Positions 9,175 through 60,519 of a DNA stretch of 64,000 bases are shown here, piece after piece. The stretch is from contig CM060984.1 in NCBI GenBank assembly GCA_030765065.1, positions 84,283,988 to 84,347,987 of the forward strand. Direction: 5' to 3'. A program made the translations under genes and the position numbers. The notes under the pieces were generated by a model. It was not told where the DNA came from. It saw only the letters and a list, made by a program, of their open reading frames with translations, and made no database searches. Numbering within the stretch: the stretch's first letter is position 1; the number at the start of each line of letters is the position of its first letter. Source of the stretch: Deroplatys truncata (taxonomy: Eukaryota; Arthropoda; Insecta; Mantodea; Mantidae).

Positions 9175-10974
9175 TTACTTTCTCTACTACGTATAGTAAG
9201 TAGGGGAAGTATTGTATTCCACCCAAAAATTCGATACCGAGATTTCACAGGAAATACATGTTTTGAGACCCCCTGAATCCAAAAAAAGCATTTTTGGAAA
9301 TATGTCCATGTGTGTGTCTGTGTGTCTGTGAACAGCATAACTCAGAAATGAACAGTCGGATAAACACCAAACTTGGTATTTAGGTTCAGTATCTTCCAGA
9401 GATGCGACTCGAAGGTTTTCATGGAAATCACCCCACCCCAGATTACCCTTTACATGGAACATTTTTCGAAAATTTTAATTTTCTCAAAAATGGCTCTAAT
9501 GATTTTGATTAAAATATCATATGTTTAAGATATTTTTATGACAAATAAAATGTATATTTTGAATTTTCTGGGAATGTCTCCAAAAGTATTCTTCATTGTG
9601 AACGACTTTTGCGTAACTGGTAAACCATAAGAGATAGACAAAATTTTATTACACAAAAAATGTAGATCGCGTTAAAATATACAATTTATGTCATGTACAT
9701 TTTTTTAGTTGAGTGAACCATTTTCGAGATATTGCTTGTTATTCCCTTAAATTTTTCAATACTTTTTTACTTTCTCTACTACGTACAGTAAGTAGGGGAA
9801 GTATTGCATTCCACCCAAAAATTCGATACCGAGATTTCACCGGAAATACATGTTTTGAGACCTCCTGAATCCAAAAAAAGCATTTTTGGAAACATGTCCG
9901 TGTGTGTGTCTGTGTGTGTGTGTGTCTGTGTGTGTGTGTGTCTGTGTGTCTGTGTGTGTGTGAACAGCATAACTCAAAAACGAACAGTCGGATAAACACC
10001 AAACTTGGTATTTAGGTTCAGTATCTTCCAGAGATGCGACACGAAGGTTTTCAAGAAAATCCCCCCACCCCAGACTACCCTTTACATGGAACATTTTTCG
10101 AAAATTTTAATTTTCTCAAAAATGGCTCTAACGATTTTGATGAAAATATCATATGTTTAAGATAATATCATGAGAAATGAAATGTATATCTCGAATTTTC
10201 TGGGAATGTCTCCAAAAGTATTCTTCATTCTGAACGACTTTTGCATAACTGGTAAACTATAAGAGATAGACAAAATTTTACTACACAAAAAATATAGATC
10301 GCGTTAAAATACACAACTTATGTCATATACATTTCTTTTGTTGAGTGAACCGTTTTCGAGATATTGCTTGTTATTTCCTTAAATTTTGCAATACTTATAC
10401 TTTTTCTCAAATTCGTTATTCATTTTTTTATGTCCTGGACATGCAAAGAGAATGGAATGCGCCACATAGCAACCAGCGTTAAAATATTTGACTATCGCTT
10501 AAAAGCTACCATATTCCCCTTGCATCTACAAGAAAATTACCAATAAGATTGACATTTCGATATCTCGATTAACATGAATCATATGGAGAATAGGCGTTTG
10601 TAAAATTAGATTGTACAAGAGTAGAGAAAGTCATGTGAGTGTAACACATCAGATTTTTTTTCTCAAATGGGAATTCGTTATTCATTTCTTTGTCTTGGAT
10701 ATGCAAAGAGTATTAATCTGTGGCAAAGGGAATGGTGCTGCACCTAGCAACCAGCTATTAAGAGATATGTATGTGCTTAAAGGCTACTGTATTTCTATAT
10801 TGCCCTTGTAAATATATATTCCCCTTACATCTACAAGAAACTTAGCAATAAGATAGAGTCTGCAAATGTTTATATCTCAATTAACATGAAGTAGATGGAG
10901 AATAAGCGTTTGTAAAAATAGTTTGTACAAGGGTGAAGGAAGTCATGTGAGTGTAACACATCAGATATTTTTTT
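9175..10974 (+). mobile_element. ACTTTCTC-family element, L type, split by a nested copy
   Basis: The element starts at ACTTTCTCTACTACG after a short T run and is interrupted at 9768-10660 by another copy. It resumes at 10661 (TCTCAAATGGGAATTC) and ends at CATCAGAT plus a T tract. The joined parts total about 907 bp. It carries the L-type tail (TCTTGGATATGCAAAGAG, AGCTATTAAGAGATATG). The internal microsatellite is short. It is non-coding. Confidence 0.88.
9768..10660 (+). mobile_element. ACTTTCTC-family element, S type, nested in the L copy
   Basis: A complete copy of about 893 bp with the S-type tail (TCCTGGACATGCAAAGAG, AATATTTGACTATCGC). It has a longer (TG)n/TCTG microsatellite at about 9900-9962. 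The L copy continues without loss on both sides, in a T run. No target duplication is seen beyond the Ts. Confidence 0.92.
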
Positions 10975-11416
10975 CCTATTTATAGGAAACATAGGAATAT
11001 GAATTTCGTTTGCAAGCAACGATACGCACGAAGCCCTTTATTTATCAAAAGTTAGTTTTGTAAAAATACGAGTGAGGGAATTTCAATCCGAGCCAGAAGC
11101 ACTGGTTTGCAACGGCGCTGTGTTGATTGCTATGCCTCTAAGATTGCTATAACGACAAAGTCTAATAAGCACCTGTTTTGGAGAGCGTTTACTAAAACTG
11201 ATTTATTAATCTTGCACCTTACTTATCGCAACTATGTCAAAAAACATAATTTTACAGCCTAAAAATCTATAATTGAATGATCATAGAAACCATAAAGTAT
11301 CCAAGTATGCTAAGGAACTACAATTAATTCCAATTGACAATTATTTGGCAGGCTTCCAGCGTTGCTTTTAGATAAACATGGATTATTATTTACTTGGGTT
11401 GTGGATTTTAGGTCCC
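10975..11416. other. Unassigned stretch with a weak tRNA-like segment
   Basis: At about 11085-11155 the minus strand shows a weak box A/box B pair (box B GGCTCGGATTGAAATTC) that may be an old SINE head. Nothing else is recognised. Confidence 0.3.
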
Positions 11417-11650
11417 GGATATAACACCGGTGTCCACTCAGCATCGTGAGGTAAGCGAGGAGCTGCGATAGGCAGCGGTCCTGGCTTCATAGCCAAATTT
11501 TAGGCTAGGGGATGCGTGATGCTGGCCACATCACATCCCCGTATCGGTTGGATCATCGCCCACCTCTGCTTTGCGCACGTGGGCGTGAGGCCGGCATCAA
11601 GCTGACAGACCCACGTCCTTCGCCACTGTAGCGCCGGAGGATTTATTTAT
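11417..11650 (+). mobile_element. SINE-like repeat family 3, copy 1
   Basis: This GC-richer segment contains GGGGATGCGTGATG, GGCCACATCAC, GTATCGGTTG, ATCGCCCACCTCTGC and GTGGGCGTGAGGCC, and ends GGAGGATTTATTTATTTAT. The same blocks occur in reverse at 31835-32001. The ATTT-repeat tail and compact size suggest a SINE. No clear pol III boxes were found. Confidence 0.65.
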
Positions 11651-12330
11651 TTATCTTCCAAAATGCGGTACGAAGACTTTTTAAGAAAATCCCCCTATCC
11701 CCAAATACCTTTTACGTGGAACATTTTTCGTAATTCTTTGTTTTCTAAAAATTCCTCTACCGAATTTGATTAAAATGCCATATATTAAAGACATTTACAT
11801 TAAAAATAAGATGTATATCTTGAATTTTCTGGGTGTAGCCTATGAAGTCTTCTTCACTGAGTAGCAATTTTGTATTTTCTTGTATAAGTGGTAAACGTTA
11901 AGCAATAGACGAAAGCGTTCTATGCAAAAAAAGAAAAGCATACCTTTTTAAAACACAAATTATTCGAAATAATATTTTTTTGCGGCATAAGCCGTTTCTT
12001 AAATAGCTATTATTAGTGGTTAGAATTGTTCATTACTGGCCATTCCTTTGAAGTGCTGTCAACGTTCAGTTGTGTCTCGGGATTGCATGGAAATAGTATG
12101 GAATTTTAAGGCCAGCATATAGCATCAAGTTCTTGAACATTTGACTATCGCTGTTCCCTTTGTATCTATAACGAAATGTTTAATGTAACTATTTCTGCAA
12201 AGGTTTATTTGGATTAAACTGCACTAGGTTGAAAAATAAGCTTTCTAAGAATAGTTTGTATTCCCCACCAATAAATAATAAAGGGTAGAGAAAGTTATAT
12301 GAATGTACCACATCAGCAATTTTTTTTTGC
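11651..12330 (+). repeat. Old ACTTTCTC-family copy, 5' part missing
   Basis: It begins directly after the SINE-like tail at the CTTCCAAAATGCGGTACGAAG block. It runs through the AATTTTCTGGG and TTGACTATCGC blocks and ends GGTAGAGAAAGTTATATG then ACCACATCAG plus T tract. Divergence is much higher than in the young copies. 12331-12458 holds nothing recognisable. Confidence 0.75.
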
Positions 12331-12458
12331 ATAGAGTTGTTTTCGAATTGAGGATTTAGTAATATCTGCAGTATTTCTAATTGTGCCAAAACACCAAGCA
12401 TACCAATGGTTAATGCTAATTGTACTGAATCAATAAAGCTCAAAAGCGTTCTATTTTT

Positions 12459-13368
12459 TACTTTCTCTACTACGTATAGTAAGTAGGGGAAGTATTGTTT
12501 TCCACCCAAAAATTCGATACCGAGATTTCACCGGAAATACATGTTTTGAGACACCCTGAATCCAAAAGAAGCATTTTTGGAAACATGTCCGTATGTGTGT
12601 CTGTGTGTCTGTGTGTCTGTGAACAGCATAACTCAGAAACGAACAGTCGGATAAACACCAAACTTGGTATTTGGGTTCAGTATCTTCCAGAGATGCGACT
12701 CGAAGGTTTTCAAGAAAATCCCCCCACACCAGATTACCGTTTACATGGAAGATTTTTCGGAAATTTTAATTTTCTCAAAAATGGCTCTAACGGTTTTGAT
12801 TAAAATATCATATGTTTAAGATATTTTTATGACAAATAAAATGTATATCTTGAATTTTCTGGGAATGTCTCCAAAAGTATTCTTCATTGTGAACGACTTT
12901 TGCATAACTGGTAAACCATAAGAGATAGACAAAAGTTTACTACACAAAAAATGTAGATCGCGTTAAAATACATAATTTATGTCATACATCTTTTTTATTG
13001 AGTGAACCATTTTCGAGATATTGCTTGTTATTTCCTTAAATTTTTCAATACTTATTTTCTCAAATCGGAATTCGTTCTTCATTTTTTTGTCTTGGATATG
13101 CAAAGAGTATTAATCTGTGGCAAAGGGAATGGTGCTGCAACTAGCAACTAGCTATTAAGAGATATGTATGTGCTTAAAGGCTACTGTATTTCCAAATTGT
13201 CCTTCTAAATATAAATTCCCCTTACATATACAAGAAAATTAGCAATAAGATACAGTATGCAAATGTTTATCTCGATTAACATGAAGTAGATGGAGAATAA
13301 GCGTTTGTAGACATAGTTTGTACAAGAATAGAGAAAGTCATGTGAGTGTAACACATCAGATTTTTTTT
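12459..13368 (+). mobile_element. ACTTTCTC-family element, L type
   Basis: A complete, uninterrupted copy of about 910 bp, running from ACTTTCTCTACTACG after six Ts to CACATCAGA plus T tract. It shows the internal TCTG/TG microsatellite and the L-type tail. It serves well as the empty-site reference for the nested insertions. Confidence 0.93.
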
Positions 13369-14551: not shown

Positions 14552-15447
14552 AAAAAATCTGATGTGTTACACTCTCATGACTTTCTCTACTCTTGTACAA
14601 ACTATTTTACAAACGCTTATCCTCCATCTACTTCATGTTAATCGAGATAAACATTTGCAGAGTCTATCTTATTGCTAATTTTCTTGTAGATGTAAGGGGA
14701 ATATATATTTACAAGGGCAATATAGAAATACAGTAGCCTTTAAGCACATACATATCTCTTAATAGCTGGTTGCTAGGTGCAGCACCATTCCTTTGCCACA
14801 GATTAATACTCTTTACATATCCAAGACAAAAAATGAATAACGAATTCCCATTTGAGAGAATAAGTATTGAAAAATATAAGGGAATAACAAGCAATATCTT
14901 GAAAATGGTTCACTCAACAAAAAAAATGTGTATGGCATAAATTGTGTATTTTAACGCGGTCTACATTTTTTGTGTAGTAAAATTTTGTCTATCTCTTATA
15001 GTTTACCAGTTATGCAAAAGTCATTCACAATGAAGAATACTTTTGGTGACATTCCCAGAAAATTCAAGATATACATTTTGTTTGTCATGAAAATATCTTA
15101 AACATATGATATTTTAATCAAAATCGTTAAGAGCCATTTCGAGAAAATTAAAATTTTCGAAAAATGTTCCATGTAAAGGGTACTCTGTGGTGGGGAATTT
15201 TGTTGAAAACCTTCGTGTCGCATCTCTGGAAGATACTGAACCTAAATACCAAGTTTGGTGTATATCCGACTGTTCATTTCTGAGTTATGCTGTTCACAGA
15301 CACACACACACACACGGACATGTTTCCAAAAAAAATTTGGGATTCAGGGGTCTCAAAACATGTATTTCCAGTGAAATCTCGGTATCGAATTTTAGGGTGG
15401 AATACAATACTTCCCCTACTTACTATACGTAGTAGAGAAAGTAAAAA
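14552..15447 (-). mobile_element. ACTTTCTC-family element, L type
   Basis: A complete minus-strand copy. On the plus strand it reads AATCTGATGTGTTACAC at the left and CTATACGTAGTAGAGAAAGT at the right. The L-type tail and a short CA-rich microsatellite are present. It is slightly more diverged than the other L copies. Confidence 0.92.
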
Positions 15448-18823: not shown

Positions 18824-19775
18824 TACTTTCTCTATTACGTATAGTAAGTAGGGGAAGTATTGCATTCCACCCAAAAATTCGATACCGAGATTTCACCGGA
18901 AATACATGTTTTGAGACCCCCTGAATCCAAAAAAAGCATTTTTGGAAACATGTCCGTGTGTGTGTCTGTGTATCTGTCTGATGGTGTGTGTGTGTGTGTG
19001 TGTGTGCGTGTGTGTGTGTCTGTCTGCCTGTGAACAGCATAACTCAGAAACGAACAGTCGGATAAACACCCAACTTGGTATTTAGGTTCAGTATCTTCCA
19101 GAAATGCAACACGAAGGTTTTCAAGAATATCCCCCCACCCCAGAGTACCTTTACATGGAACATTTTTCGAAAAATTTAATTTTCTCAAAAATGGCTCTAA
19201 CGATTTTGATTAAAATATGTTTAAGATATTTTCATGACAAATAAAATGTATATCCTGAATTTTCTGGGAATGTCTCCAAAAGTATTCTTCATTGTGAACG
19301 ACTTTTGCATAACTGGTAAACCATAAGAGATAGACAAAATGTTACTACACAAAAAATGTAGATCGCGTTAAAACACACAATTTATGTCATATACATTTGT
19401 TTTGTTGAGTGAACCATTTTCGAGATATCGCTTGTTATTCCTTTAAATTTTCCAATACTTATTTTCTCAAATGGGAATTCGTTACTCATTTTTTTGTCTT
19501 GGATATGCAAAGAGTATTAATCTGTGGCAAAGAGAATGGTGCTGCACCTAGCAACCAGCTATTAAGAGATATGTATGTGCTTAAAGGCTACTGTTTTTCT
19601 ATATTGCCCTTGTAAATATATATTCCCCTTACATCTACAAGAAAATTAGCAATAAGATAGAGTCTGCAAATGTTTATCTCGATTAACATGAAGTAGATGG
19701 AGAATAAGCGTTTGTAAAAATAGTTTGTACAAGAGTAGAGAAAGTCATGTGAGTGTAACATATCAGATTTTTTTT
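18824..19775 (+). mobile_element. ACTTTCTC-family element, L type
   Basis: A complete copy of about 952 bp, the longest here because its microsatellite (about 18955-19030) is expanded and mixed (TGTG, TCTG, TGCG). It starts after six Ts and ends CATATCAGA plus T tract. L-type tail. Confidence 0.93.
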
Positions 19776-20530: not shown

Positions 20531-20989
20531 GAAAGGTAGAATCAGATGACTGAAAAATTCAATGCCATAGCCGGGATTTGAACCTCGGATCTCCCGGTCT
20601 CCGTCCGGTTGCTCTAACCACTGAGCTACCATGGCAACATACCGACACGACATTAAATTCTCCAGCTGATTCGCATTTTTCCCGGTAAACCACAAGGAGA
20701 TCTCAAATTATATTGAGATGTCATACCCCAATGGCGACTTACATTCATTGTAAGTACTTTAAGTCCCGGGCTTTATAGTTGCAACCGCTATTAGGTCAAT
20801 TAATGGAATTAATTGTTCTTTCACACAAGCCGTGTGTTGGACAGGGTTGGAAGTCGTTAGAGCAACCGGACGGAGACCGGGAGATCCGTGGTTCAAATCC
20901 CGGCTATGGCATTGAATTTTTCAGTCATCTGATTCTACCTTTCAACCCTGTCCAACACACGGCTTGTGTGAAAGAACAATTAATTCCAT
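20531..20989. mobile_element. Fold-back SINE (family 2) insertion with exact target duplication
   Basis: The 459-bp insertion is bounded by an exact 14-bp duplication CAAAGGGAATAATG at 20517-20530 and 20990-21003. It contains two SINE family 2 copies in opposite orientation. The left one (minus strand, tRNA-like head 20564-20635) is followed by an unrelated middle. The right one (plus strand, head about 20850-20915) is cut within its D arm. The right tail (20943-20989) is a perfect 47-bp inverted repeat of 20803-20849. The whole therefore went in as one unit or was rearranged after insertion. Confidence 0.85.
20564..20635 (-). repeat. tRNA-like head of SINE family 2
   Basis: The 72-nt segment starts GCCATGG and ends CTATGGC, pairing as a 7-bp acceptor stem with one G-U. 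It has a GCTC/GAGC D stem, a CCGG/CCGG anticodon stem and box B GGTTCAAATCC. The T stem pairs poorly and loop position 33 is C rather than U. I therefore call it a SINE promoter, not a functional tRNA gene. Confidence 0.85.
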
Positions 20990-21687: not shown

Positions 21688-22548
21688 AAAAAAAATCTGA
21701 TGTGTTACACTCACATAACTTTCTCTACTCTTGTACAACCTAACTTTACAAACGCTTATTCTCCATATTCTTCATGTTAATCGAGATATCGAGATGTCAA
21801 TCTTATTGGTAATTTTCTTGTAGATGCAAGGAAAATATGGTAGCTTTTAAGCGATAGTCAAATATTTTAACGCTAGTTGCTATGTGACGCATTCCATTCT
21901 CTTTGCATGTCCAGGACATAAAAAAAATGAATAACGCATTTGAGAAAAAGTATAAGTATTGGAAAATTTAAGGAAATAACAAGCAATATCTCGAAAACTG
22001 TTCACTCAACAAAAGAAATGTATATGACATAAGTTGTGTATTTTAACGCGATCTACATTTTTTGTGTAGTAAAATTTTGTCTATCTCTTATGGTTTACCA
22101 GTTATGCAAAAGTCGTTCACAATGAAGAATACTTTTGGAGACATTCCCAGAAAATTCGAGATATACATTTTATTTGTCATGAAAATATCTTAAACATATG
22201 ATATTTTAATCAAAATCGTTAGAGCCATTTTTGAGAAAATTAAAATTTTCGAAAAATGTTCCATGTAAAGGGTAATCTGGGGTGGGGGGATTTTCTTGAA
22301 AACCTTCGTGTCGCATCTCTGGAAGATACTGAACCTAAATACCAAGTTTGGTGTTTATCCGACTGTTCAATTTTGAGTTATGCTGTTCACAGACACACAG
22401 ACAGACACACACACGGACATGTTTCCAAAAATGCTTTTTTTGGATTCAGGGGGTCTCAAAACGTGTATTTCCGGTGAAATCTCGGTATCGAATTTTTGGG
22501 TGGAATGCAATACTTCCCCTACTTACTATACGTAGTAGAGAAAGTAAA
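21688..22548 (-). mobile_element. ACTTTCTC-family element, S type
   Basis: A complete minus-strand copy of about 860 bp. It has the S-type tail GCGATAGTCAAATATTTTAA and CATTCTCTTTGCATGTCC, and a short CA microsatellite. Ends are AATCTGATGTGTTAC at the left and CGTAGTAGAGAAAGT at the right. Confidence 0.93.
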
Positions 22549-23134: not shown

Positions 23135-23985
23135 AGAAAAAGATTTGATGTATTACATTTACATGTCTTTCTCTACCCACCTTCTAGATACTATTCTTAC
23201 AAAACCTTATTTTTCTATCTACTCCATGTTAATCCGTATAGTTTCATTATGCATTCCAAATTAAGTATATGGCGGATACAGGATGCCGAAGCGATAAGCA
23301 AATCTTTAAAAGCGGGTCGGTGTATGCTGGCTTTGAAATTCCTCTCTTTGCGAAAAATAACTGAATAGTGACAGTACTAACAAATTGTTATTGAAAAACT
23401 CAAACCAATAACTGAAAATATCTCGGAAACTGCCGATGCTACAAAAAAGTTATTTGAAACAAACTGCGTGGTTTAAAGGGACATACATGTTTTGTGTACT
23501 AAGTTTTTGTCTTTAATGGTTTGCTAGTTGTATAAAATTACATAACATTAATTCTGAATGAAGGGGACTTCACCGACTATTCAAACGAAATTCAATATTT
23601 ATATTTTATCAATCATGTAAATATCTTACATATGCGTTATTTTAATCATAATCGTTAGACATTTTACATGCAAAGGGAAGCATGGTATGGGAAAATTTCT
23701 TAAAAATCTTTATGTCGCTTCTTTAAAAGGTGCTGAACTTAAATACGAAGTGTAGTATCTATTCCACTTTTGGATTTATTTATGCTGTTAATATACAGAG
23801 ACAGACACGCTCTCGCTCTCACACTCATTCTCACTCCCCTCATACAAGGAATTTTTTCTAAAAATCCTTTTTTTCAGAGAGTCTCAAAAGATGTATTTCT
23901 ATGAAATCTCCATGATGAATTTTTAGTTGGAATACGTACTTTCTCTATCTACTATAGGTAGGTGCTAGAGAAAGTAAAAAATCTG
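23135..23985 (-). repeat. Old ACTTTCTC-family copy
   Basis: It runs from GATTTGATGTATTACA on the left to GGTGCTAGAGAAAGT on the right and keeps the full order of family blocks. The microsatellite has become ACACGCTCTCGCTCTC-like. Both ends are recognisable. Confidence 0.8.
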
Positions 23986-24246: not shown

Positions 24247-25042
24247 CGCGTATGGGTTTTAGTAAGTAAACAGAGCAATCGTGTTGCCGCACGAGGTATA
24301 GGTTACGTTGGGTATTGTGATGGACACAATCCTCCCCAACGCAACCTCCACAGTCACGTTGCGGCTGTTTCATATATTCGATACATATATATTTAAAACA
24401 TCATGTTAAACAACCTGCAATTCAATGAAACACAAGGAACATGCGACATTATTAGAAAGGAACAATGGGGAAAGTGGACTTTCAACCTCCTCAACTCCAA
24501 ACTATGATGGCATGTTGCATGGTAGCTCAGTGGTTAGAGCAACCGTACGGAGACCGGGAGATCTGTGGTTCAAATCCCGGCTATGGCATTGAGTTGGCAG
24601 TCACCTGATTCTACCTTTCCAACCCTGTCCAACACACGGCTTGTGTGGAAGAACAATTAATTTCATTATGATCAAAATGTTTCGAGGATGTGTGTCATTC
24701 GCTAATAAGAGGGGATATTTTTTTAAAAATTTACATCTTTCCATGTAAAAGAAATGCAATCTAACTCAGATTTCTGTGTATTAATGCCTTAATCAAATCA
24801 TAAGATAACTTTAAACTACACTCAATAGTTAAACATACGTTGCTGTTTTCCCTTTCAATACTCCTTAACCCTGGCCTACCGGCTATCGAAGTAGGGTTTA
24901 ATGCCTTCAAACTGTATATCATATTTTGTTAACAGAGAACACGGCAAGGCCACAAGTGCTTCCACCTACTCTCGCCACCAACCCTTAGTGTGTTTCTAAC
25001 TTGATGGTTTACTTACTGAAACCCCTCTGCCCGCTTATCGCA
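24247..25042 (+). mobile_element. TIR element (inverted pair member 1)
   Basis: The left end reads GGTTTTAGTAAGTAAACAGA. The right end, reverse complemented, reads GCGGGCAGAGGGGTTTCAG followed by TAAGTAAACC, giving related TIRs of about 30 bp. The element aligns along its length with the reverse complement of 40322-41050. No transposase is visible, so it is non-autonomous. The superfamily is not decided: the CAGAGGGG start would suit hAT, but no 8-bp duplication was found. A SINE at 24510-24666 interrupts it. Confidence 0.65.
24510..24666 (+). mobile_element. tRNA-derived SINE family 2, complete
   Basis: The 157-bp element has a tRNA-like head (GCATGGTAGCTCAGTGG to CGGCTATGGC) and a body of about 75 bp ending CGGCTTGTGTGG, AAGAACAATTAATTT. 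The flanking duplication is TATGAT (24504-24509 and 24667-24672). The homologous repeat at 40322-41050 lacks this segment, which independently confirms the insertion. Confidence 0.9.
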
Positions 25043-27494: not shown

Positions 27495-28245
27495 ACCTTT
27501 TACTTTATCTAGCATCTACAGTAAGTAGAAAAAGTGTTGTAATTTCAACCAAACATTTGCAGTCGAGATTTTACCTGTGTATGTTTAGAGCCCCCCTGAA
27601 TCCAAAACAAGTTTTGTGAGTATGTGAGAGATGTATATGTAACTCAAAAACCAAAAGCCGATAAACAGCACCAAACTTCCTCTTTACGTTCAGTATCTTT
27701 CAAAAATGCGACACAAAATTTTCCAAGGAAATCTCTTATTTTTTTTCAAAAAAGTCTGAATAGTTTTACTAAAATACCATATATTTAAGATATTTACATG
27801 ACAAATAAAATGCATATATTGAATTTACTGGGAGTAGCCTGTAAACTTCTCTTCACTGGGAGGGCATTTTCTACAATTTTGTGTAACTGATAAAAACGAT
27901 AATGTGCAAAAATGTAAACTTCTTTAAAACACAATTTGTTTCAAACATCTTTTTATATGGCATTAGATTTTTCCAAGATATCCGCTACTATTAATTTGAA
28001 TCGTTCAGAAGTTTTGTCGTTTTTAAAATGCTGTCGTTATTCAATTATTTTTCGCGATGTCATGGTAAGAATGGGAATTTCAAACCTAACTTTTAAACAT
28101 CTGACTATCGATTCGGTTCTTGTATCTACAACAAAATGTATAAGAAACCATTTCTGTATAAATAAGCTTTCGTAATAATAGTATATAAAGGTCATACAAA
28201 AATACACGATAGCGTGCAGAGAAAGGCATGTAAATGTAACAATCC
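27495..28245 (+). repeat. Old ACTTTCTC-family copy
   Basis: It starts ACTTTATCTAGCATCTACAG and ends GCAGAGAAAGGCATGTAAAT plus GTAACAATCCGA. The middle blocks are in order but strongly diverged. It abuts a second old copy starting at 28254. Confidence 0.75.
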
Positions 28246-28390
28246 GACTTGTTTACTTTCTCTACGCTCACTTGTAAAAGTAGAGCAAATATATTCCTAT
28301 CAAAAATTCGATATAAATATTTCAGCAGAAACTGCGTTTTGAGCTCTCTGATTAATATGTTCTAAAGAATTTTAGAACGAGGTCCTTGTT

Positions 28391-28393
<3 letters not shown>

Positions 28394-28456
<63 letters not shown>
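28394..28456 (+). repeat. (TG)n microsatellite
   Basis: About 30 uninterrupted TG units at the usual microsatellite position of the family. It is the longest pure tract in the window although the host copy is old, so expansion continued after insertion. Confidence 0.95.
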
Positions 28457-28459
<3 letters not shown>

Positions 28460-28875
28460 AAGAACACAACTCAAAAATGACCGATAAATGCCAAACTTGG
28501 TATATTTAAGTGCAGGTCTCTCAACGATGCTACCCGAAGATTTTCAAAAAAATCCTCCTCCCCAAATGTATACGTTACATGGAAAATGTTTCATCATTTT
28601 CTATTTCTCCAAAAAAGCTAACGATTCAGACTACTGAAAACTTCTGTATAAGTTGTAACCGTAAGAGCTAAACAAAAACTTACTGCACAAAAAATGTAGA
28701 TCTCATTAAAACGTTATTTATGTCATAAATACTCAGTGTATAGACAGTTCCTAGATATGTTGCATTGAATTTTCAAATATTTTATACTTTTTAGCCGTGC
28801 TAAGTCAGCGCTTGTTTCTTTCTCCAGATGTCATGCAAAGAGTATGAAATTTCAAAGAATAGTTCGTAGAAACTA

Positions 28876-42415: not shown

Positions 42416-44870
42416 CTTTTTCCGGCCGACAGCAACACTCTTCTACTTGGAGATCTTAACTGTAAGCACTCCTCATAGGGTTGTCACTCTACTAATCATA
42501 ATGGCCGACGTATCTACAATATGTTGAATATGTGTGGATTATCCACCCTAGCTCCTACGGAACCTACTTACTATCCAACAATCCACTGTCCGCTCCCGAT
42601 ATTCTTGATATTGAGATTTACAGAAATTTACATCTTCCAGCATTTGTAACCACCTTAGCAGAACTTGATTCCGATCTTTGCACAGTCTTGTTTGTTTTTC
42701 AAATCACTCCCAACATACTTCCCATAGTTCCAAGACTTATTAATGGTTACGTAAAATGGAATCTATTTCATACTCATCTAGGCTCAACATTATATGCAGC
42801 GTATTCCCTTCCCACTAGGGCAGATATTGATGCTGCCGCTCCGCACTACACGGACACTATAAGTCACTGCGTGCGCATTTCTACTAGCTAATTAAAGCGG
42901 CACCAGTTAGCCCCTTCCTTAAGTTTGCCATCCTACATCCTAACCGTGAAAACAATAGTGTTCATCGACGACAATGGTAACAGGAAAGACTGGTCAAAAA
43001 CGACATGGATTAGCACGTTTCGTGAAAGCTTAACTCGAGCGCCATCGCTTTGACACCTATCAACGTCAGCTAGCAAGCATTTCACCGCATGTTCACACTC
43101 TATGAGATTCTACGAGACGACTTCTTCGCGAGTCAATTGTTATGCCAGCTCTTTCTATTGGTAATGGTCTTGTAACAGAAGTTAAAGATAAACGTGGCAT
43201 TCTTGTTTCCCACTACGAACAGACATTCACTACAAATCCGCCTTTATTTGATGCTACTATTAGAGATGTTGAACAAGAACTCTATGCTCTTTGACATCGA
43301 CCCACTGATCCACGCAAAATCTTCTTCACAACCCCCAGAAAACTACGTATTTGATTCGATGTCCTCCTCTTAAAAATCTCCAGAGCACGATCTGCTACCT
43401 AATGCAGCCCTTAAAAACCTGAAAGTAAAGCACTTGCTTACTTATCATACATCTTGAATGCCTTAAGTTACTTTCCACACAATCGAAGTATGCTAACATC
43501 ATAATGTTCCTTAAACCAAACAAGTCTAAAAATCTTCCTGGCAGTTATCGTGCAATTAGTTTATTACCGACGTTATCCAAACTCTTTGAAGAGCTGTCAC
43601 AAACTCGATATCAGGACAGCATAATTTCAGACTTCCACTTCGGATTCCGTTCTAAGCATTCTACTTCGCATCAGCTGTTACGTTTTGCTCAAACAATTGT
43701 CCATGGTTTTGAAAATCGTCAGCACACAAAGGCCCTGTTCCTAGATGTAGCACAGACCTTCGATAAAGTATGGGACGATGGCTTAATCCTCAAGCTCTAT
43801 CGTATCAGCCCTCCACAATATCTACTCACTACCATCTGCAATTCTCTACCAAAACGCACCTTTGTAGTTTGTATTGGTGGTATTCAGTCGTCTCGGCGTT
43901 CTATTAAAGCAAGAGTTTCACAGCGGTCGATGCTCGCTATCTTCGTCAGCCAAGATGTTCCAACCCACATCTATGATCTTCCTGTCTTGACCCCTACTAT
44001 CAGAGCTTTATACGCCAACGATAGTTTTATTCTATTCACGCGCAGCACAATTCAAGCTTCTCTTAATCGTCTCGCAGAGTGATCTTACGCTTGGAGAATA
44101 CTTCTTAAACCGAAAAAACTGAGGCTAAGATATTTCCCTTAGGACGTATCACTTACCCTGCATATTCATAATAAACAAATCCCTGGCTACCTTCTACAAC
44201 TCCTGTCAAGTATCTTAGAGTAGTGCTGGATACTAAAGTCACTTGGCACGCCCATATCGAATGCTTTATTTCATTAGCATCCGGAAAACGTTCTAAACCC
44301 TATCCACTGTTTCATAAACACACGCCTGTTGCTCTTGAATGCTCTCTTCTACTTTACAAATCTCTAGTTCAACCCATCCTCAAATATGCTTCCCAGGTAT
44401 GGGGCACTGCTAGGGACATTCATCTCCACCGTCTTCAAGTGCTCCAAAACAGATTCCTGAGAATCACTTCTAATGCTCCTTGGTTTGTCAGGAACCAGCA
44501 GCTACAACAAGAACTCGGTCTCCTTTCGCCAGTTTATACGTAAGCTCGCCTCTCGCTTCTTCTCACACTTGCCAGACCTTTCAAGAGCTGCGACGTAAAC
44601 ATAGGCCCATCAGCCCTCACGCCTGAAGAGACGACTACCATAGGTTCTCCTAATCAGTAACTCCGATCACTAACTGCACTAATTTTCCTCTGAGAATCGC
44701 TTTTAATCACTACGAGTATGTAATATTTATCCATATTTCATAGTTAACAGGAGCCACTTTGGTCTTCGTTGAATGTTGATAATCATTTATTGTATTATAC
44801 TGTTCACATAGATCTGTAAAACTTGTATGCTGATCGATAATAATTAGTTAAAATGGAAAAAGAAAATATA
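42416..44870 (+). mobile_element. Jockey-like LINE, 5'-truncated and decayed
   Basis: The first part reads the end of an APE endonuclease: LLLGDLNCKH, NHNGRRIYNML, EPTYYP and DILDIEIYRNLHLP followed by ELDSD. The reverse transcriptase follows at about 43504-44082: FLKPNKSKNLPGSYRAISLL, FGFRSKHSTSHQLLRF, ALFLDVAQTFDKVWDDGL, and ALYAND where YADD is usual, so the active-site Asp is altered. The C-terminal part at 44223-44543 (TWHAHIE, VQPILKYASQVWG, HRLQVLQNRFLR) completes the protein. The layout matches Jockey-clade proteins. Multiple stops and frame changes separate the parts. The 3' untranslated part is assumed to run to about 44870. Confidence 0.82.
43504..44082 (+). pseudogene. Jockey-like reverse transcriptase fragment
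   Basis: A 192-codon open stretch covering RT motifs from the PNYRPISLLP-like block (PGSYRAISLLPTLSKLFEEL) to the altered YADD box (YANDSFILF). It is the longest intact coding stretch of a retroelement in the window, but it is only a part of the enzyme. Confidence 0.88.
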
Positions 44871-45690: not shown

Positions 45691-46582
45691 TACTTTCTTT
45701 ACTACGTATAGTAAGTAGGGGAAGTATTGTATTCCACCCAAAAATTCGATACAGAGATTTCACCGGAAATATATGTTTTGAGACCCCCTGAATCCAAAAA
45801 AAAGCATTTTGGAAACATGTCCGTGTGTGTGTCTGTGTGTCTATCTGTCTGTGAACAGCATAACTCAGAAACGAACCCAAACTTGGTATTTAGGTTCAGT
45901 ATCTTCCAAGGATGCGACACGAAGGTTTTCAAGAAAATCCCCCCACCCCAGATTACCCTTTACATGGAACATTTTTCGACTAGTTTAATTTTCTCAAAAA
46001 TGCCTAACGATTTTGATTAAGATATGTTTAAGATATTTTCATGACAAATAAAATGTATATCTTGAATTTTCTGGGAATGTCTCCAAAAGTATTCTCCATT
46101 GTGAACGACTTTTGCATAACTGGTAAACCATAAGAGATAGACAAAATTTTACTACACAAAAACTGTAGATCGCGTTAAAATTCACAATTTATGTCATATA
46201 CAGTGTTTTTGTTGAGTAAACCATTTTCGAGATATTGCTTGTTATTCCCTTAAAGTTTTCAATACTTATTTTCTAAAATGGGAATTCGTTATTCATTTTT
46301 TTGTCTTGGATATGCAAAGAGTATTAATCTGTGGGAAAGGGAATGGTGCTGCACCTAGCTACCAGCTATTAAGAGATATGTATGTGCTTAAAGGCTACTG
46401 TATTTCTATATTGCCCTTGTAAATATATATTCCCCTTACATCTACAAGAAAATTAGCAACAAGACAGAGTCGGCAAATGTTTATCTCGATTAACATGAAG
46501 TAGATGGAGAATAAGCGTTTGTAAAAATAGTTTGTACAGGAGTAGAGAAAGTGATGTGAGTGTAACACATCAGATTTTTTTT
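45691..46582 (+). mobile_element. ACTTTCTC-family element, L type
   Basis: A complete copy of about 892 bp starting after six Ts (ACTTTCTTTACTACG) and ending CACATCAGA plus T tract, with L-type tail. It lacks a few bases around the AACGAACC block compared with other copies. Confidence 0.92.
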
Positions 46583-48259: not shown

Positions 48260-49089
48260 TACTTTCTCTACTGCATTCCAGCCAAAAATTCGATACCGAG
48301 ATTTCACCGGAAATACATGTTTTGAAGTGCCATGATTTCAAATAAAGAATTTCTGGGAAACACATACATGTGTGTGTGTGTCTGTGAACATTGTAACTCA
48401 AAAACGAAAAGTCGGATAAACACCAAACTTTGTATTTGGGTTTAGTACCTTCCAACAATACGAGACAATGATTTTCAAAAAAATCCCCCCGCTCTATACT
48501 TCCCTTTACATGTAACATTTTTCGTAAGTTTTGAATTTCTAAAAAATGGTTATAACGGCTTTGATTATAATATAATATGTTTAAGATGTTTTTATGAAAT
48601 GTATATCTTGGATTTTCTGGGAATGTCCCCAAAAGTCCTTTTCATTCTGAATGTCTTTTGCATAACTAGTAAACCGTAAGAGATGCACAAAATTTACTCC
48701 CCAAAAAATGTAGATCTCGTTAAAACACGTAATTTATGTCATTTACATTTTTTTTTGTCGAATGAACCATTTCCGAGATATTTGTTATTTGTTCTAATTT
48801 GTCAATATCTTACTTTTCCTCAAATAGTAATTCGTTCTTCTTCTTTTTTTTTGTCTGTCCTAGACATGCAAAGAGAATGAAATGCTCCACGTGGCAACCA
48901 ACTCTTAAATGGTTTGACTGTCTCTTAAAGCCTACCATATTTCCCTTGCACCTACAAGACAATTAGCAATCAGATATATTTGCAAATGTTTATATAGATT
49001 AAGATAATTAGATGCAGAATAAGCGTTTGTAAAAATAGTTTGTACAAGAGTAGAAAAAGTCATTTGAGTGCAACACATCAGATTTTTTT
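48260..49089 (+). mobile_element. ACTTTCTC-family element, diverged, S-like tail
   Basis: It starts ACTTTCTCTACTGCATTCCA, lacking the GTATAGTAAGTAGG segment, and ends AAAAGTCATTTGAGTGCAAC plus CACATCAGA. The tail has CTAGACATGCAAAGAGAATG and GTTTGACTGTCTC, close to the S type. It is intermediate in age. Confidence 0.88.
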
Positions 49090-50625: not shown

Positions 50626-51089
50626 CATATTTTTACTTTCTCTGCTATGTAGGGAAAGTAGGTGTATTGCATTCCACTCAAAAATTCCATACGCAAATTT
50701 CACCGGAAATACATGTTTTGAGGCGCTCTGAATCCAAATAAGGCATTTCTGAAACATGTCCATGTGCGTATGTGTGTCTGTGAACAGCATAACTCAAAAA
50801 CGAAAAGTGGGATAAATATCAAACTAGGTATTTGAATTTAGTATCTTCCAAGGACGTGACCCAAAGATTTTCAAGAAAATTTCTCCACCCCTACTACCCT
50901 TTACGTGGAATATTTTTCGAAAATTTGATTTTCTCAAAAATGGCTAACGATTTTGATTAAAATATCACATGTTTAAGTTATTTTCATGGCAAATAAAATG
51001 TATATCTTGACTTTTCTAGGGGATGTCCCCAAAAGTCCTCTTCATACTGAATGATTTTTGCATAACTGGTAAACCGTAAGAGATTATTA

Positions 51090-52380
51090 CGAGGGGCACT
51101 ATTTATATTTTGAGCCTGATAATTAAAACAAAGTAATTTCTGATTGAAAACTGCTTTATTGTTTTTCAAAATATTCTCCTTTATGTTCAATACACTGTTG
51201 CATCCGTTTGAACCATTTGTCAAAGCATTTATTCCAGTCTTCTTGAGACACCTCCAAAACATGGTTTTTGAAAGCATCAACGGCTTCTTCTGCCAATGGA
51301 AATAGTTGTCCACGCAATTTATTCTTGATGTTCGGGAACAAAAAGAAGTCATTGGGTGCCAAATCAGGACTGTATGGCGGATGACCCATCAATTCGATTT
51401 TTTGAGCCTTCAAATACTCTGTTGTTAGACGAGATGTGTGTGCGCTCGCATTGTCTTGATGAAGAACGATTCTACGGTTCTTGTTGGTTTCCCTTTCTTC
51501 ACCGAAGACTTCCGGCAAACAAATGGTTGTGTACCATTCGGCATTGACCGTTTTACGTTCCTCTAAAAACACTGTTGCCACATGGTCAGTTTTGCTGAAA
51601 AAGCAGGCGACCATTTGCTTCGAAGTGCTTCAAGTGCGAACGACTTTTGTTGGATTTGCTTCATCTTGAAACACCCATACAGTCGACTGCTGTTTACGTT
51701 CCGGCTCATACGCATAAATCCATGATTCGTCACCTGTTACAATCTTATATACGTCTTTGAGGCACCGCCATTGAATTTCTTGAGCATTTTTGTACACCAA
51801 TCGATACGAGCATGTTTTTAAGATTGCATCAAATCATGTAGGATTCAACGAGAGTAAACCTTTTTAACGACTAAATAATCATGCAATATTTTATATATGT
51901 TGGTGGAAGTAATGCCTAGGGTTGCCACAATCTCACAATATATCGCATGACGATCGTTCATTATTAGTTTTTGCACAGCATCAATGTTTTCTGGCACAAC
52001 AACTGATTTTGAACGACCATCACGAACTTCATCATTGAGCGAATGGCGGCCACGATTAAATTCGTATTACCAGCGTTTCACAGTGGCAAAAGATGGAACT
52101 TCGTCGCCAAATGTGGAAGTTAGTTGATCGATGCACTCTTGTCTTGATAATCCACGTCGAAAGTTGTAATAAATCATTGCACGAACATTTTCACGAGTTA
52201 ATTCCAGGTTTTTGTTGACATACAAATTTCAAGTTAGTGTAAACAAAACAAATGACGCTCTATTGACAAAATATTTGAAGTAGATTATGGTCAAAAACAT
52301 CAAACTTTCCATTGGAAACGTCAGTTGGCACCTACAACATTCAGGGTTGGCAAGGCTCAAAATATAAGTAGTGCCCCTCG
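51090..52380 (-). mobile_element. Mariner transposon, TIRs preserved, transposase broken
   Basis: The 1291-bp element has TIRs of about 28 bp with one mismatch (CGAGGGGCACTA, then TTATATTTTGAGCCT). TA duplications lie at 51088-51089 and 52381-52382. On the minus strand the N-terminal part reads REN-VRAMIYYNFRRGLSRQ, TFGDEVPSFATVKRW, ARIDWCTKML and a GDESW-like block in shifted frames with stops. The C-terminal half is open. Subfamily is not assigned. Confidence 0.95.
51156..51614 (-). pseudogene. Mariner transposase C-terminal half
   Basis: A 152-codon open stretch carries LHQDNASAHTS and HPPYSPDLAPNDFFLFP. The two Asp residues are separated by 34 residues, the D34D spacing of mariner. The C-terminus reads KCFDKWFKRMQQCIEHKGEYF. 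The first catalytic Asp lies upstream (GDESW) in a different frame, so the enzyme is not complete. Confidence 0.93.
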
Positions 52381-53039
52381 TACACAAAAAATGTAGATCT
52401 CGTTAAAACACACAATTTATGACATTACGTTGTTTTTCGAGTGAACCATTTCCGTGATATTCCTTTTTATTTGTTTAAATTTTCCAATACTTATACGTTT
52501 TCTCAAATAGGAATTTGTTATTCTTTTTCTTTATGTCCCGGACATGCAACGAGAACAAAGAAGAATGAATACTCCATATAGCAACCAGCTCTTAAAAGAT
52601 TTGATTATCGCTTAAAGTCTACCATATTCCCCTTGTGCCTACAAGAAAATTAGCAATAAAATAGTTTCTGCAAACGTTGATCTCGATTAGCATGAAGTAG
52701 ATGGAGAATAAGCGTCTGTAAAGATAGTTTGTACAAGAATAGAGAAACTCATGTGAGTGTAACACATCAGATTTTTTCTTCTTAGGAATGATTTCAAATT
52801 AGGGAGAGAAAAGACATGAATTGCAAACTTTCAAGCATGTCCGTTATGTGACGCTTAGAACATTTCAACATATTTCTATTTCAACATAGAATATTTAAAA
52901 AAAACATTTGACACAAATATTATACCTAAATGAGCTCTATATTCTTCCTCAAGTAGGCTGTCTACCTTGTTATACAACATTATACAGAATTCAGCCACAC
53001 GAAGTTCACAGGATATCATAAAAAATATAATATATAAAA

Positions 53040-55393: not shown

Positions 55394-55500
55394 TTACTAC
55401 CTCTGTGGTCGAGATGTCAACGTTCTGGCTTCTCGACCCATAGGTCCCGGGTTGATCCCCGTCTGGAGCGGTGAATTCTTCTTTAACCAGATTCATGCCC
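55394..55500 (+). mobile_element. tRNA-headed SINE fragment
   Basis: Box A-like CTGTGGTCGAGATGTC and box B-like AGGTCCCGGGTTGATCCCC are at normal tRNA spacing. A short body reaches the PIF/Harbinger-like element starting at 55509. Confidence 0.65.
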
Positions 55501-55508
55501 TGCCCTCA

Positions 55509-56659: not shown

Positions 56660-56844
56660 TCAGAGTCTAGAAGTATGAGTGTAGGAGTGAATGTGCGTGT
56701 ATTTCATGATAAAAAGTAACAAGCAACGTTAAGACACCTACAGTTCAGCGAGTGAAAACACCAACGCCATCAGTTGTTTCTCAAGTCAAAGCCTGATGTG
56801 GCTTAGAAGTTACGAGGGGCTATACAAATGAAAGGAAATATTTT

Positions 56845-57660
56845 TGTGTGATCCATTCATACAACTTTCTCAACCCTTATCTTTGTTAGTAGGTATATAA
56901 ATTATTCTTACTAAACCATATTTTCCTACCTACTGCATTTTAATCCAAATAAACCGTTGCAAAACTAGCTGCATTACACATTTCGTTATAGATACAAAGG
57001 GAACAGCGATAGTCAAGTGTTTATGCTGGCCTTAAGATTCCATAGTGTTTCCATGGAATATCGAGAAACAACTCAATGCTTGCAGGACTTTAAGAGAATG
57101 ACCAAGAAATGAAAAATTTGAACCATTAATAACATATATCTCAGAAACAGCTTATGCTACAAAAACGTGTTTTAAATAAATTGTGTGCTTTAAAGAGCTC
57201 TACATTGTTGTGTGGTACGTCTTCGTCTATCGCTTAACGTTTACCGGTTATACTTATAATCCTAGGCTAATCCCAGAAAGGTATAATTTTATTTAACATT
57301 AAATAAAATGGTATTTTAATCAAAATGTTAAAGCCATTTTTTAGAAAATCAAAATTTTGGAAAAATATTCCATGTAAAGTGTATTTGGGGGTGGGAGGAG
57401 TTTCTTGAAAACCTTTGTACCGCATCCTTGAAAGATACTGAACTAAATACCAAGTTTGGTATTTATCCGACTTTTCGTTTTTGAGTTATACTCTTCACTG
57501 ACACACAAGAGACACAAGGACATGTTTCCGAAAATGCTTTATTTGGATTTAGGGAGCCCGAAAACATTTATTGCCGGTGACATCTCGGTATCGAATTTTT
57601 TGGTGGAATGCAATACCTTCTCCACCTACTATATAGATTCGTGGTAGAGAAAGTAAAATA
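56845..57660 (-). repeat. Old ACTTTCTC-family copy
   Basis: Runs from TTTGTGTGATCCATTCATAC and CAACTTTCTC through GCGATAGTCAAGTGTTTATG to GATTCGTGGTAGAGAAAGT. It keeps all blocks in reverse order, with an ACACAAGAGACACAAGG remnant of the microsatellite. Confidence 0.82.
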
Positions 57661-58232
57661 TTCAGTATAACTATCATATTTATCGACAAACTTACGCCAT
57701 ACAATCGAATGTCTTTCCACATGGCTTTCTCTAACAATGACAAATTCACTTATACTCATTGGCTTTTATACTATACCTTACTATTGGTATATTTACTTTC
57801 TGTACTACGTATAGTAAGTACGGGAGTGTGTCTGTTTGTGTGTCTGTGTGTCTACCTGTGAACAGCATAACTCAGAAACGAACAGTCGGATAAACACCAA
57901 ACGTGGTATTTAGGTTCAGTATCTTCCAGAGATGCGACACGAAGGTTTTCAAGAAAATTCCCCCACCCCAGATTACCCTTTACATGGAACATTTTTCGAA
58001 AATTTTAATTTTCTCAAAAATGACTCTTAACGATTTTGATTAAAATATCACATCTTTAAGATGTTTTCATGATAAATAAAATGTATATCTTGAATTTTCT
58101 GGGAATGTCTCCAAAGGTGTTCTTCATTGTGAACGACTTTTGCATAACTGGTAAACAATAAGAGATAGACAATGTTGCAACACAAAAAATGTAGATCGCG
58201 TTAAAATACACAATTTATGTCATAATCATTTT

Positions 58233-59143
58233 TACTTTCTCTACTACGTATCGTAAGTAGGGGAAGTATTGCATTCCACCCAAAAATTCGATACCGAGAT
58301 TTCACCGGAAATACATGTTTTGAGACCTCCTGAATCCTTAAAAAGCATTTTTGGAAACATGTCCGTGTGTGTGTCTGTGTGTGTGTGTGTCTGTGTGTGT
58401 GTGTGTCTGTGTGTGTGTCTGTGTGTGTGTCTGTGTGTGTGTCTGTGAACAGCATAACTCAAAAACGAACAGTCGGAGACGCACCAAACTTGGTATTTAG
58501 GTTCAGTATCTTCCAGAGATGCGACACGAAGGTTTTCAAGAAAATCCCCCCACCCCAGACTACCCTTTACATGGAAGATTTTTCGAAAATTTTAATTTTC
58601 TCAAAAATGGCTCTAACGATTTTGATGAAAATATCATATGTTTAAGATAATGTCATGAGAAATGAAATGTATATCTCCAATTTTCTGGGAATGTCTCCAA
58701 AAGTATTCTTCATTGTGAACGACTTTTGCATAACTGGTAAACCATAAGAGATAGACAAAATTTTACTACACAAAAAATGTAGATCGCGTTAAAATACACA
58801 ACTTATGTCATATACATTTCTTTTGTTGAGTGAACCGTTTTCGAGATATTGCTTGTTATTTCCTTAAATTTTCCAATACTTATACTTTTTCTCAAATACG
58901 TTATTCATTTTTTTATATCCTGACATGCAAAGAGAATGGAATGCGCCACATAGCAACCAGCGTTAAAATATTTGACTATCGCTTAAAAGCTACCATATTC
59001 CGCTTGCATCTACAAGAAAATTACCAATAAGATTGACATCTCGATATCTCGATTAACATGAAGCATATGGAGAATAGGCGTTTGTAAAAATAGATTGTAC
59101 AAGAGTAGAGAAAGTCATGTGAGTGTAACACATCAGATTTTTT
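58233..59143 (+). mobile_element. ACTTTCTC-family element, S type, nested copy 1
   Basis: A complete copy of about 911 bp, from ACTTTCTCTACTACGTATCG to CACATCAGA plus Ts, with a long TG/TCTG microsatellite at about 58365-58445. It lies within the host's TCATTTTTTTGTTGAG block. Confidence 0.93.
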
Positions 59144-59338
59144 TGTTGTTGAGTGAACCATTTTCGAGGTATTCCTTGTTATTCCCTTAAATGTTTCAAT
59201 ACTTTTCTCAAATAGGAATTCGTTATTCATTTTTTTGTCTTGTATATGCAAAGAGTATTAATCTGTGGCAAAGGGAATGGTGCTTCACCTAGCAACCAGC
59301 TATTTAGAGATATGTATGTGCTTAAAGGCTACTGTTTT

Positions 59339-60225
59339 TACTTTCTCTACTACGTATAGTAAGTAGGGGAAGTATTGCATTCCACCCAAAAATTCGATAC
59401 CGAGATTTCACCGGAAATACACGTTTTGAGACCTCCTGAATCCAAAAAAAGCATTTTTGGAAACATGTCCGTGTGTGTGTCTGTGTGTGTCTGTGTGTCT
59501 GTGTGTCTGTGTGTGTGTGTGTGTCTGTGAACAGCATAACTCAAAAACGAACAATCGGATAAGCACCAAACTTGGTATTTAGGTTCAGTATCTTCCAGAG
59601 ATGCGACACGAAGGTTTTCAAGAAAATCCCCCCACCCCAGACTACCCTTTACATGGAAGATTTTTCGAAAATTTTAATTTTCTCAAAAATGGCTCTAACG
59701 ATTTTGATGAAAATATCATATGTTTAGGGTAATGTCATGACAAATGAAACGTATATCTCAAATTTTCTGGGAATGTCTCCAAAAGTATTCTTCATTGTGA
59801 ACGACTTTTGCATAACTGGTAAACCATAAGAGATAGACAAAATTTTACTACACAAAAAATGTAGATCGCGTTAAAATACACAACTTATGTCATATACATT
59901 TCTTTTGTTGAGTGAACCGTTTTCGAGATATTGCTTGTTATTTCCTTAAATTTTCCAATACTTATACTTTTTCTCAAATGCGTTATTCATTTTTTTTATG
60001 TCCTGGACATGCAAAGAGAATGGAATGCGTCACAGCAACCAGCGTTAAAATATTTGACTATCGCTTAAAAGCTACCATATTTTCCTTGCATCTACCAGAA
60101 AATTACCAATAAGATTGACATCTCGATATCTCGATTAACATGAAGCATATGGAGAATAGGCGTTTGTAAAATTAGATTGTACAAGAGTAGAGAAAGTCAT
60201 GTGAGTGTAACACATCAGATTTTTT
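59339..60225 (+). mobile_element. ACTTTCTC-family element, S type, nested copy 2
   Basis: A complete copy of about 887 bp inserted in the host at CTACTGT/TATATTGCCC. It shares the S-type markers ATTTTGATGAAAATATC and TGAACCGTTTTCGAG with copies 9768 and 58233. Confidence 0.93.
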
Positions 60226-60519
60226 GTATATTGCCCTTGTAAATATACATTCCCCTTACATCTACAAGAAAATTAGCAATAAGATAGAGTCTGCAAATGT
60301 TTATCTCGATTAACATGAAGCATATGGAGAATAAGCGTTTGTAAAAATAGTTTGTACAAGGGTAGAGAAAGTCATGTGAGTGTAACACAGCAGATTTTTT
60401 TACCTAGGAATTGTCTCCAAGTATGCAAGAAGGTTACAATATGCGCAAGCAGCATTCAAATGTTTATTGGAGATAATAAGCTGTTGGGATGGAAAGAAAA
60501 GAAAATAGGGAGAAGGGGA

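Follow-up and report, generated by a model that had tools for sequence, protein, structure and literature searches.

HINEs with matched autonomous Helentron partners are known from a mite, Culex and some Drosophila, and clustered and neighbouring Helitrons have also been noted (PMC4067079). HINE-Mo of the mite Metaseiulus occidentalis has sub-terminal inverted repeats (subTIRs) of 12–15 bp, a short 3′ palindrome, microsatellites in some copies, an unmodified T-rich target with a variable number of terminal Ts, and a Rep/helicase/endonuclease partner with the same ends (PMC4067079). DINE-1/INE-1 of Drosophila is composed, in this order, of a 5′ subTIR, a partial 5′ inverted repeat, a microsatellite in the 5′ block, a 3′ subTIR and a stem–loop, and inserts between Ts (PMC2374699), while Cg_HINE of Crassostrea gigas has a subTIR, an inverted repeat, a microsatellite, a 3′ palindrome and an oligo-T location, with tandem copies containing truncated inner units also mentioned (PMC7492417). 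Here we analyse 64,000 bp of the mantis Deroplatys truncata (GCA_030765065.1, CM060984.1; C10:84283988-84347987 of a 4.29-Gb host genome in 818 contigs; hereafter the window), whose dominant repeat family resembles all three systems in these respects, save that its 3′ hairpin is weak, and we conclude that its members are very probably HINEs, that is, non-coding passengers of an endonuclease-encoding Helentron.

A repeat family fills a third of the window

The initial annotation of the window, made from the letters alone, described 13 well-kept copies and about two dozen old relatives of a non-coding element. The 5′ motif ACTTTCTCTACT or its inverse, at no more than one mismatch, gave 31 matches in the window, compared with a mean of 0.75 and a maximum of 2 in 20 first-order Markov simulations with both strands counted, and the 17-nt hairpin at the same tolerance gave 12 matches versus 0 simulated. 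The motifs of the repeat family are real and far more frequent than chance. Ten whole copies and three split by later insertions were mapped, which accounts for the 13 claimed (Table 1). A profile made from the ten uninterrupted copies matched 50 segments at E<1e-3, spanning 21,997 of the 64,000 bases, and 46 at E<1e-6, spanning 21,680 bases or a third of the window; the stricter cut-off was chosen because the reversed window, used as control, gave four matches at E<1e-3, the best of them at 3.4e-6. Nineteen of the 46 segments come from the thirteen well-kept copies; the other 27 belong to older relatives, a number to which 'about two dozen' was fair, and the family extends beyond the range first assigned to it, into 1175–1385 and 60533–63699.

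Nine of the ten uninterrupted copies have one layout with small variations: a T tract, ACTTTCTCTACT, ten bases, AGTAGGGGAAGT, about 90 bases, CATGTCCG and a TG/TCTG microsatellite of highly variable length, followed by about 600–700 bases, AGTAGAGAAAGT, one base, the hairpin ATGTG-AGTGTAA-CACAT, CAGA and a T tract. The tenth, at 48261, is without the 5′ inverted repeat. The common start, microsatellite, inverse end, CAGA and T tracts described initially were all seen in the mapped copies, and the subTIR, at 12 bp, lies within the range of HINEs (about 11–15 bp). The partial inverted repeat AGTAGGGGAAGT, ten bases past the 5′ subTIR, is a feature absent from that description, and as DNA its fold is somewhat more stable than those of shuffles, 4 of 200 of which equal it. 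The longest ATG frame in the ten copies is 38–86 aa and differs in location between them (+126, −560, −683 and others), in agreement with the earlier statement that there is no coding frame and with the lack of coding capacity of HINEs.

The family also differs from the described systems. The subTIRs of HINE-Mo are themselves palindromic (PMC4067079), whereas here a separate partial inverted repeat stands beside the 5′ subTIR, in the style of DINE-1. Compared with DINE-1, the subTIR is ACTTTCTCTACT rather than of ATACCC-like types, the microsatellite is TG/TCTG rather than GTCY-rich, and the 3′ stem has 5 bp, below the 7–11 bp of DINE-1 (PMC2374699). Homology to DINE-1 block A was considered and rejected in a rough comparison, with an INE-1 block A query and shuffles of the stretch minus its microsatellite: the best unmasked score was 23, at the microsatellite start alone, within the range of the shuffles (mean 20.1, maximum 31). 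Cg_HINE has satellite-like central repeats (PMC7492417), and none were seen in the window family.

Subfamilies and age layers

The four Y copies (9769, 21696, 58234 and 59340) diverge mutually by 2.5–3.9% and the five O copies (12460, 14558, 18825, 35453 and 45692) by 5.5–7.9%, while the 48261 copy stands 17–20.5% from the other nine. Three of the four Y copies are nested in O-type copies, 9769 in the copy at 9177 and both 58234 and 59340 in that at 57795; therefore, nesting and divergence agree, and the several age layers proposed at the outset are borne out by both.

An autonomous Helentron with the same ends

An autonomous Rep/helicase partner with the same 5′ and 3′ ends, the search for which had been suggested as a check, was found in the same genome. 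Among 152 Helitron_like_N matches in the host genome, 18 of those listed lie in stop-free frames of at least 2,000 aa; 150 of 291 Rep candidates were scored. Six of the 18 loci were taken in 20 kb, together with the ends of eight more from the same group (seven from the 18, plus B_C9b with a 1,711-aa frame). In five of the six, both ends, ACTTTCTCTACTACGTATAGT... at 5′ and ...GTAGAGAAAGTTATGTGAATGTAACACATCAGA-Tn at 3′, occur at no more than 2 mismatches, 9,786–10,158 bp apart. These five copies differ mutually by 0.44–1.23% and have open frames of 2,324–2,441 aa. A_C3, the sixth, has the 3′ end, but a search for its inner 5′ start found none; the 3′ end occurs in all 14 loci examined of this group. 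Given the low divergence of the Helentrons and of the Y copies, both have spread recently.

The frame of one locus (L009) was the sole one translated. Its protein, P0001, contains Herpes_teg_N, DUF6570, Helitron_like_N (E = 1.2e-27) and PIF1 (E = 1.9e-28), and in its helicase it resembles the Helraiser transposase (7lcc, E = 2.9e-22). A C-terminal endonuclease, Exo_endo_phos_2 (PF14529), scored above the cut-off (E = 1.6e-6) when this segment was scanned alone and was unlisted in the whole-protein scan. The Rep motif VEFQMRGSPHEH is of the Helentron type RGSPH, with serine in RG(S/L)PHxH, and this serine is reported as Helentron-specific (PMC4067079). The one protein read thus combines the characters of a Helentron: Rep and a PIF1-like helicase, a C-terminal AP-type endonuclease and the motif serine. 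In the window itself, a search for Rep/helicase motifs by regular expression gave nothing convincing, which is a weak test; Pfam was applied to ten frames of the window.

Compared with Helentron A_C5, the one of the five copies searched on which these identities rest, the first 600–800 bp are common to all ten uninterrupted HINE copies at 78.8–93.0% identity, and the last 32–36 bp to nine of the ten at 90.9–97.0%. For Cg_HINE the authors could relate no autonomous Helentron (PMC7492417), whereas here a partner is found.

Some further observations concern the Helentron protein and its relatives. The N-terminal Herpes_teg_N match, a predicted tegument-like deubiquitinase (E = 1.3e-8, L009:1971-2700), contains the strings QCTSNS and FDPH, which we take to be catalytic strings of this enzyme. 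Helentrons with tegument-like domains are already known and, like P0001, have Herpes_teg_N at the N-terminus and an endonuclease at the C-terminus (PMC9741609); the element described here differs from them in its host and sequence. Frames of 2261, 2324, 2345, 2387 and 2408 aa differ by multiples of 21 aa, with lengths of 2372, 2416 and 2441 aa outside this series; the repeated charged segment in the protein is likely a coding minisatellite. A second Helitron_like_N group (L001–L008 and L021–L024) reaches E = 1.5e-54, with internal stops in seven of the eight best.

Insertion into T tracts

T tracts flank all ten uninterrupted copies, with 2–6 Ts on the left and 6–8 on the right, and the elements end in ACTTTC and CAGA within these tracts. 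The initial annotation had proposed insertion into T runs without visible target duplication, with a comparison of empty sites as a check. For the three nested copies of the window, uninterrupted sister copies served as empty sites, and the flanks were joined with six Ts replacing the T runs. The flanks join at the T tract with no flanking sequence duplicated beyond Ts, so the proposal holds on these paralogous sites, and with it the T-rich, unduplicated target of HINEs. Because the left flanks end in a non-T base plus Ts and the right flanks begin with T, no duplication can exceed the left T run in length. Neither a consistent duplication nor a partner from another superfamily, the two contrary outcomes named beforehand, was encountered among the loci examined.

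The T tracts in its own copies make the family a target for itself, and an internal tract of the HINE, GTTATTCA-T8, is reused as an insertion hot spot. Uninterrupted, this tract is T7–8 in Y (15 sites) and T6–9 in O (16 sites; 31 in total). Beside insertions it reads T4 at 12 of 21 left sides, T5–7 at the other nine and T7 at 9 of 12 right sides, counts that include overlapping loci.

Evidence for a HINE origin and alternatives

The observed basis for regarding these repeats as HINEs is the common ends, the long open partner frame in the genome and T-tract insertion without non-T duplication, and the HINE-like lineage first proposed is supported by the Helentron ends and the insertion sites. 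We infer trans-mobilisation by rolling circle, with roles for the subTIR and hairpin. Most likely, the Rep/helicase/endonuclease protein would recognise any DNA having both ends, the 5′ one marked by the subTIR and inverted repeat and the 3′ one by the subTIR and hairpin; it would copy one strand by rolling-circle replication, and the copied strand would be joined into a T tract, the target not being duplicated.

Several observations weigh against this reading. The old copy at 48261 has no 3′ match to Helentron A_C5, and about 200 bp upstream of the HINE 3′ subTIR are without a match in the Helentron, the HINE consensus agreeing with it at 31 of the last 33 bp and only 38 of the last 60. Given the unmatched 200 bp and the poor agreement over the last 60 bp, the HINE is no plain deletion derivative of the Helentron found, and its 3′ interior, in a difference from HINE-Mo, does not come from this partner; a closer one may exist. 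The identity of HINE and partner is below the >95% reported for Culex (PMC4067079). Under the published rules, at least 11 identical subTIR bases for a family and at least 80% over the last 60 bp for a subfamily (PMC4067079), the two belong to one family, sharing at least 11 bp of subTIR, and not to one subfamily.

The 3′ hairpin is also weak: its place is fixed, but the fold of the hairpin by itself is equalled by 88 of 200 shuffles (z −0.22), and that of hairpin, subTIR and T tract together by 41 of 200, so its support is positional, not energetic. Its stem is short at 5 bp, the palindromes of HINEs having 5–10 bp; in seven of the ten uninterrupted copies all five pairs are Watson–Crick, as they are in 11 of 25 3′ ends, and a both-sided change in one stem pair occurs in two of the 25 (23177 and 56875). 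The empty sites of the window are imperfect, with an A missing beside 9769, an extra GTT beside 58234 and a C that reads G beside 59340. Likewise, a duplication consisting of Ts alone would be compatible with the data, and the 12 left T4 counts at the hot spot are the composite junctions (see below) and probably one event.

The Ts on both sides bear on whether the family could instead be a miniature inverted-repeat transposable element (MITE), a cut-and-paste derivative with terminal inverted repeats in which the flanking T or TT would be a short piece of duplicated target. They are formally compatible with a T-only duplication, the 12-bp inverted repeats, small size, lack of coding and abundance would fit, and DINE-1 was formerly classed in this way (PMC2374699). 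We nevertheless consider a MITE very improbable: the 3′ repeat is internal and followed by 22 bp with the hairpin and CAGA, the ends are asymmetric, and the matching ends belong to a Rep/helicase/endonuclease element. A passenger of canonical Helitrons, with 5′ TC, 3′ CTRR and insertion between A and T, would draw on the second, higher-scoring Helitron_like_N group of the genome; however, TC/CTRR ends are absent in the uninterrupted copies, no pair of the studied ends surrounds the Rep match in L021–L024 of that group (10 kb each), and the partner that does match has the Helentron motif and endonuclease, which leaves this origin exceedingly improbable. The absence of coding and the homopolymer at the 3′ end could also suggest a short interspersed nuclear element (SINE)-like retroelement with a 3′ tail. 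Evidence against it comes from the T tracts found to the left as well as to the right, the flanks without non-T duplication, the defined 5′ ends, and the ends common to HINEs and Helentron; neither of the window's two Rfam tRNA matches falls in the thirteen copies, and we give this origin next to no credence.

Probable composite Helentrons with a HINE front end

In 13 of the 14 autonomous loci, a HINE 5′ module of 626–679 bp lies directly before the Helentron start, joined to it by GCGTTATTCA-T4, and the composite junction reads GTTATTCA-T4-ACTTTCTC. The modules have a median divergence of 1.1% among themselves (0–2.2%), and the Helentrons that follow have one of 1.2% over their first 330 bp (0–2.7%); as the two are equally diverged, the unit of spread looks composite. 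Four outer modules lie at a median of 2.6% from these modules, and 21 complete HINEs at a median of 5.2%, with the nearest at 1.0%; among these HINEs, the copy at 59340–60219 of the window is the nearest to the modules of 11 of the 13 Helentrons (1.0–1.8%).

When the profile was run on 300 bp on each side of the 14 autonomous units (90 bp to the left of B_C8), ten proved to stand between two stretches of family sequence. For eight of these nested units, the two flanks break off at profile positions that adjoin each other; in six, the break is at one and the same internal T tract, where the left match ends at positions 634–636 and the right match starts at 632–635. The flanks of B_C4b and B_C13b meet in antisense copies, with about 3 bases unaccounted for in B_C13b. 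A_C4 is preceded by a HINE 3′ end; B_C10b has a HINE 3′ remainder behind the Helentron and no family sequence in the 300 bp before its module; A_C9 and B_C1 have family sequence on neither side.

These data suggest that a Helentron inserted in the T8 tract of a Y HINE, and that module and Helentron (about 9.8–10.2 kb) have since spread as a unit from the HINE 5′ end, stopping at the 3′ end of either the Helentron or the HINE, an account we regard as probable. In the simplest reading, a single self-insertion of this kind appears to have founded the composite and the pair spread later; B_C10b may resemble the founder. The tandem 5′ modules could alternatively be the Helentron's own 5′ region, duplicated by rolling-circle re-initiation or slippage rather than by nesting in a HINE. 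Tandem Helitrons with 3′-truncated inner copies are reported (PMC7492417), and module and Helentron front are related, the Y HINEs nearest to the modules being 84.5–93.0% like the Helentron 5′ part. Slippage is nonetheless unlikely, as the modules are nearest to Y HINEs (1.0–1.8%), B_C10b retains its HINE remainder with no family sequence ahead of the module, and outer modules and remainders are equal in number in A_C5, A_C13 and B_C9b.

Among the ten nested units, the flanks are less clean in A_C10, with about 39 bp unaligned, and in B_C13c, with a HINE in between. Neat nesting is not the whole story, because the first remainder in B_C4c is O-type though its module is Y, and in the L016 array three 3′ ends are found for five tandem 5′ starts. 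Head-to-tail HINE copies were also considered as rolling-circle concatemers, an idea not adopted: the two adjacent full copies of L010 are of different subfamilies and are explained by a copy landing in the T tract at the end of another.

Abundance in the host genome

The exact 38-nt HINE 3′ end occurs 99,739 times in the genome and the reversed pattern 0 times. The window holds four exact 3′ ends versus 1.5 expected at genome density, and it is therefore richer than average. As the exact end is found in four of the 13 well-kept window copies, a rough estimate is about 300,000 copies genome-wide. A single satellite array at the start of C1 accounts for 26 of the 100 exact 3′-end places listed; the figure of 99,739 therefore includes copies multiplied by other means. 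The satellite unit is 3,409 bp long and 98.9% identical between the two units compared (L047, G000:C1:20400-27400), each unit read contains one complete HINE of about 834 bp, and the listed matches reach C1:119398. Drosophila genomes are much smaller than the host genome. Block-A matches of DINE-1 number 334 to 5,424 per Drosophila species (PMC2374699), while Helitrons make up 17–22% of assembled morabine grasshopper genomes (PMC7754599), so high Helitron abundance has a precedent among large insect genomes.

Features of the window

Coordinates of the family members discussed above are collected in Table 1. The DNA that splits the copy at 50635 contains a transposase-like frame on the minus strand (51156–51629, DDE_3, E = 3e-8). 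At 43429–44543, a reverse transcriptase-like frame (RVT_1, E = 1.2e-11), followed by a frame without a Pfam match, is a probable long interspersed nuclear element (LINE) remnant. A 36-bp tandem repeat of about 7.6 copies lies at 4328–4600 within a stop-to-stop frame of 127 aa. The minus strand carries a tRNA-Ser (GGA) at 20562–20636, and the plus strand has a weaker tRNA match at 24517–24588.

Table 1. HINE copies in the window and parts of the exemplar copy
Feature	Coordinates	Strand	Remarks
Split copy, O-type	9177–10965	+	Split by the 9769–10653 copy
Complete copy, subfamily Y	9769–10653	+	Exemplar; nested in the 9177 copy
5′ subTIR	9769–9780	+	Exemplar; ACTTTCTCTACT
Partial inverted repeat	9791–9802	+	AGTAGGGGAAGT; 10 of 12 bases Watson–Crick complementary to the 5′ subTIR
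TG/TCTG microsatellite	9900–9962	+	Exemplar; immediately 3′ of CATGTCC
3′ subTIR	10620–10631	+	Exemplar; AGTAGAGAAAGT
3′ hairpin	10633–10649	+	ATGTG-AGTGTAA-CACAT; then CAGA at 10650–10653
3′ boundary T tract	10654–10661	+	Exemplar; T8 (left boundary T6)
Complete copy, subfamily O	12460–13360	+	
Complete copy, subfamily O	14558–15442	−	
Complete copy, subfamily O	18825–19767	+	
Complete copy, subfamily Y	21696–22545	−	
Old relative, example	23146–23975	−	
Old relatives, head-to-tail	27502–28849	+	27502–28241, then from 28255
Complete copy, subfamily O	35453–36353	−	
Complete copy, subfamily O	45692–46574	+	
Older complete copy	48261–49082	+	17–20.5% from the other nine; 5′ inverted repeat deleted
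Split copy	50635–52771	+	Split at 51085–52380 by DNA with a transposase-like frame
Old relative, example	56847–57654	−	
Split copy	57795–60394	+	Split by two Y copies (58234–59137, 59340–60219)
Complete copy, subfamily Y	58234–59137	+	In a T tract of the 57795 copy
Complete copy, subfamily Y	59340–60219	+	In another T tract of the 57795 copy

Significance

Of five element strings searched in the literature, ACTTTCTCTACT alone occurs, in papers unrelated by title, and the other four gave none; exact element strings gave none in the viral contig or genome contig collections searched. The kind of element is known; what stands out in this family is its great number of copies and the passenger front end carried by most helper copies examined. 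Self-nesting would explain simply why a single family fills a third of a 64-kb stretch. With several near-identical partners and about 100,000 exact HINE 3′ ends, this natural system makes the rules of trans-mobilisation testable, namely which ends are required, what role the hairpin has and what governs the choice of T tracts. The composite Helentrons provide a concrete route to a new 5′ end and, if our account of their origin is true, self-targeting of T tracts would act as a system for swapping ends, one that could maintain the match between passengers and helper.

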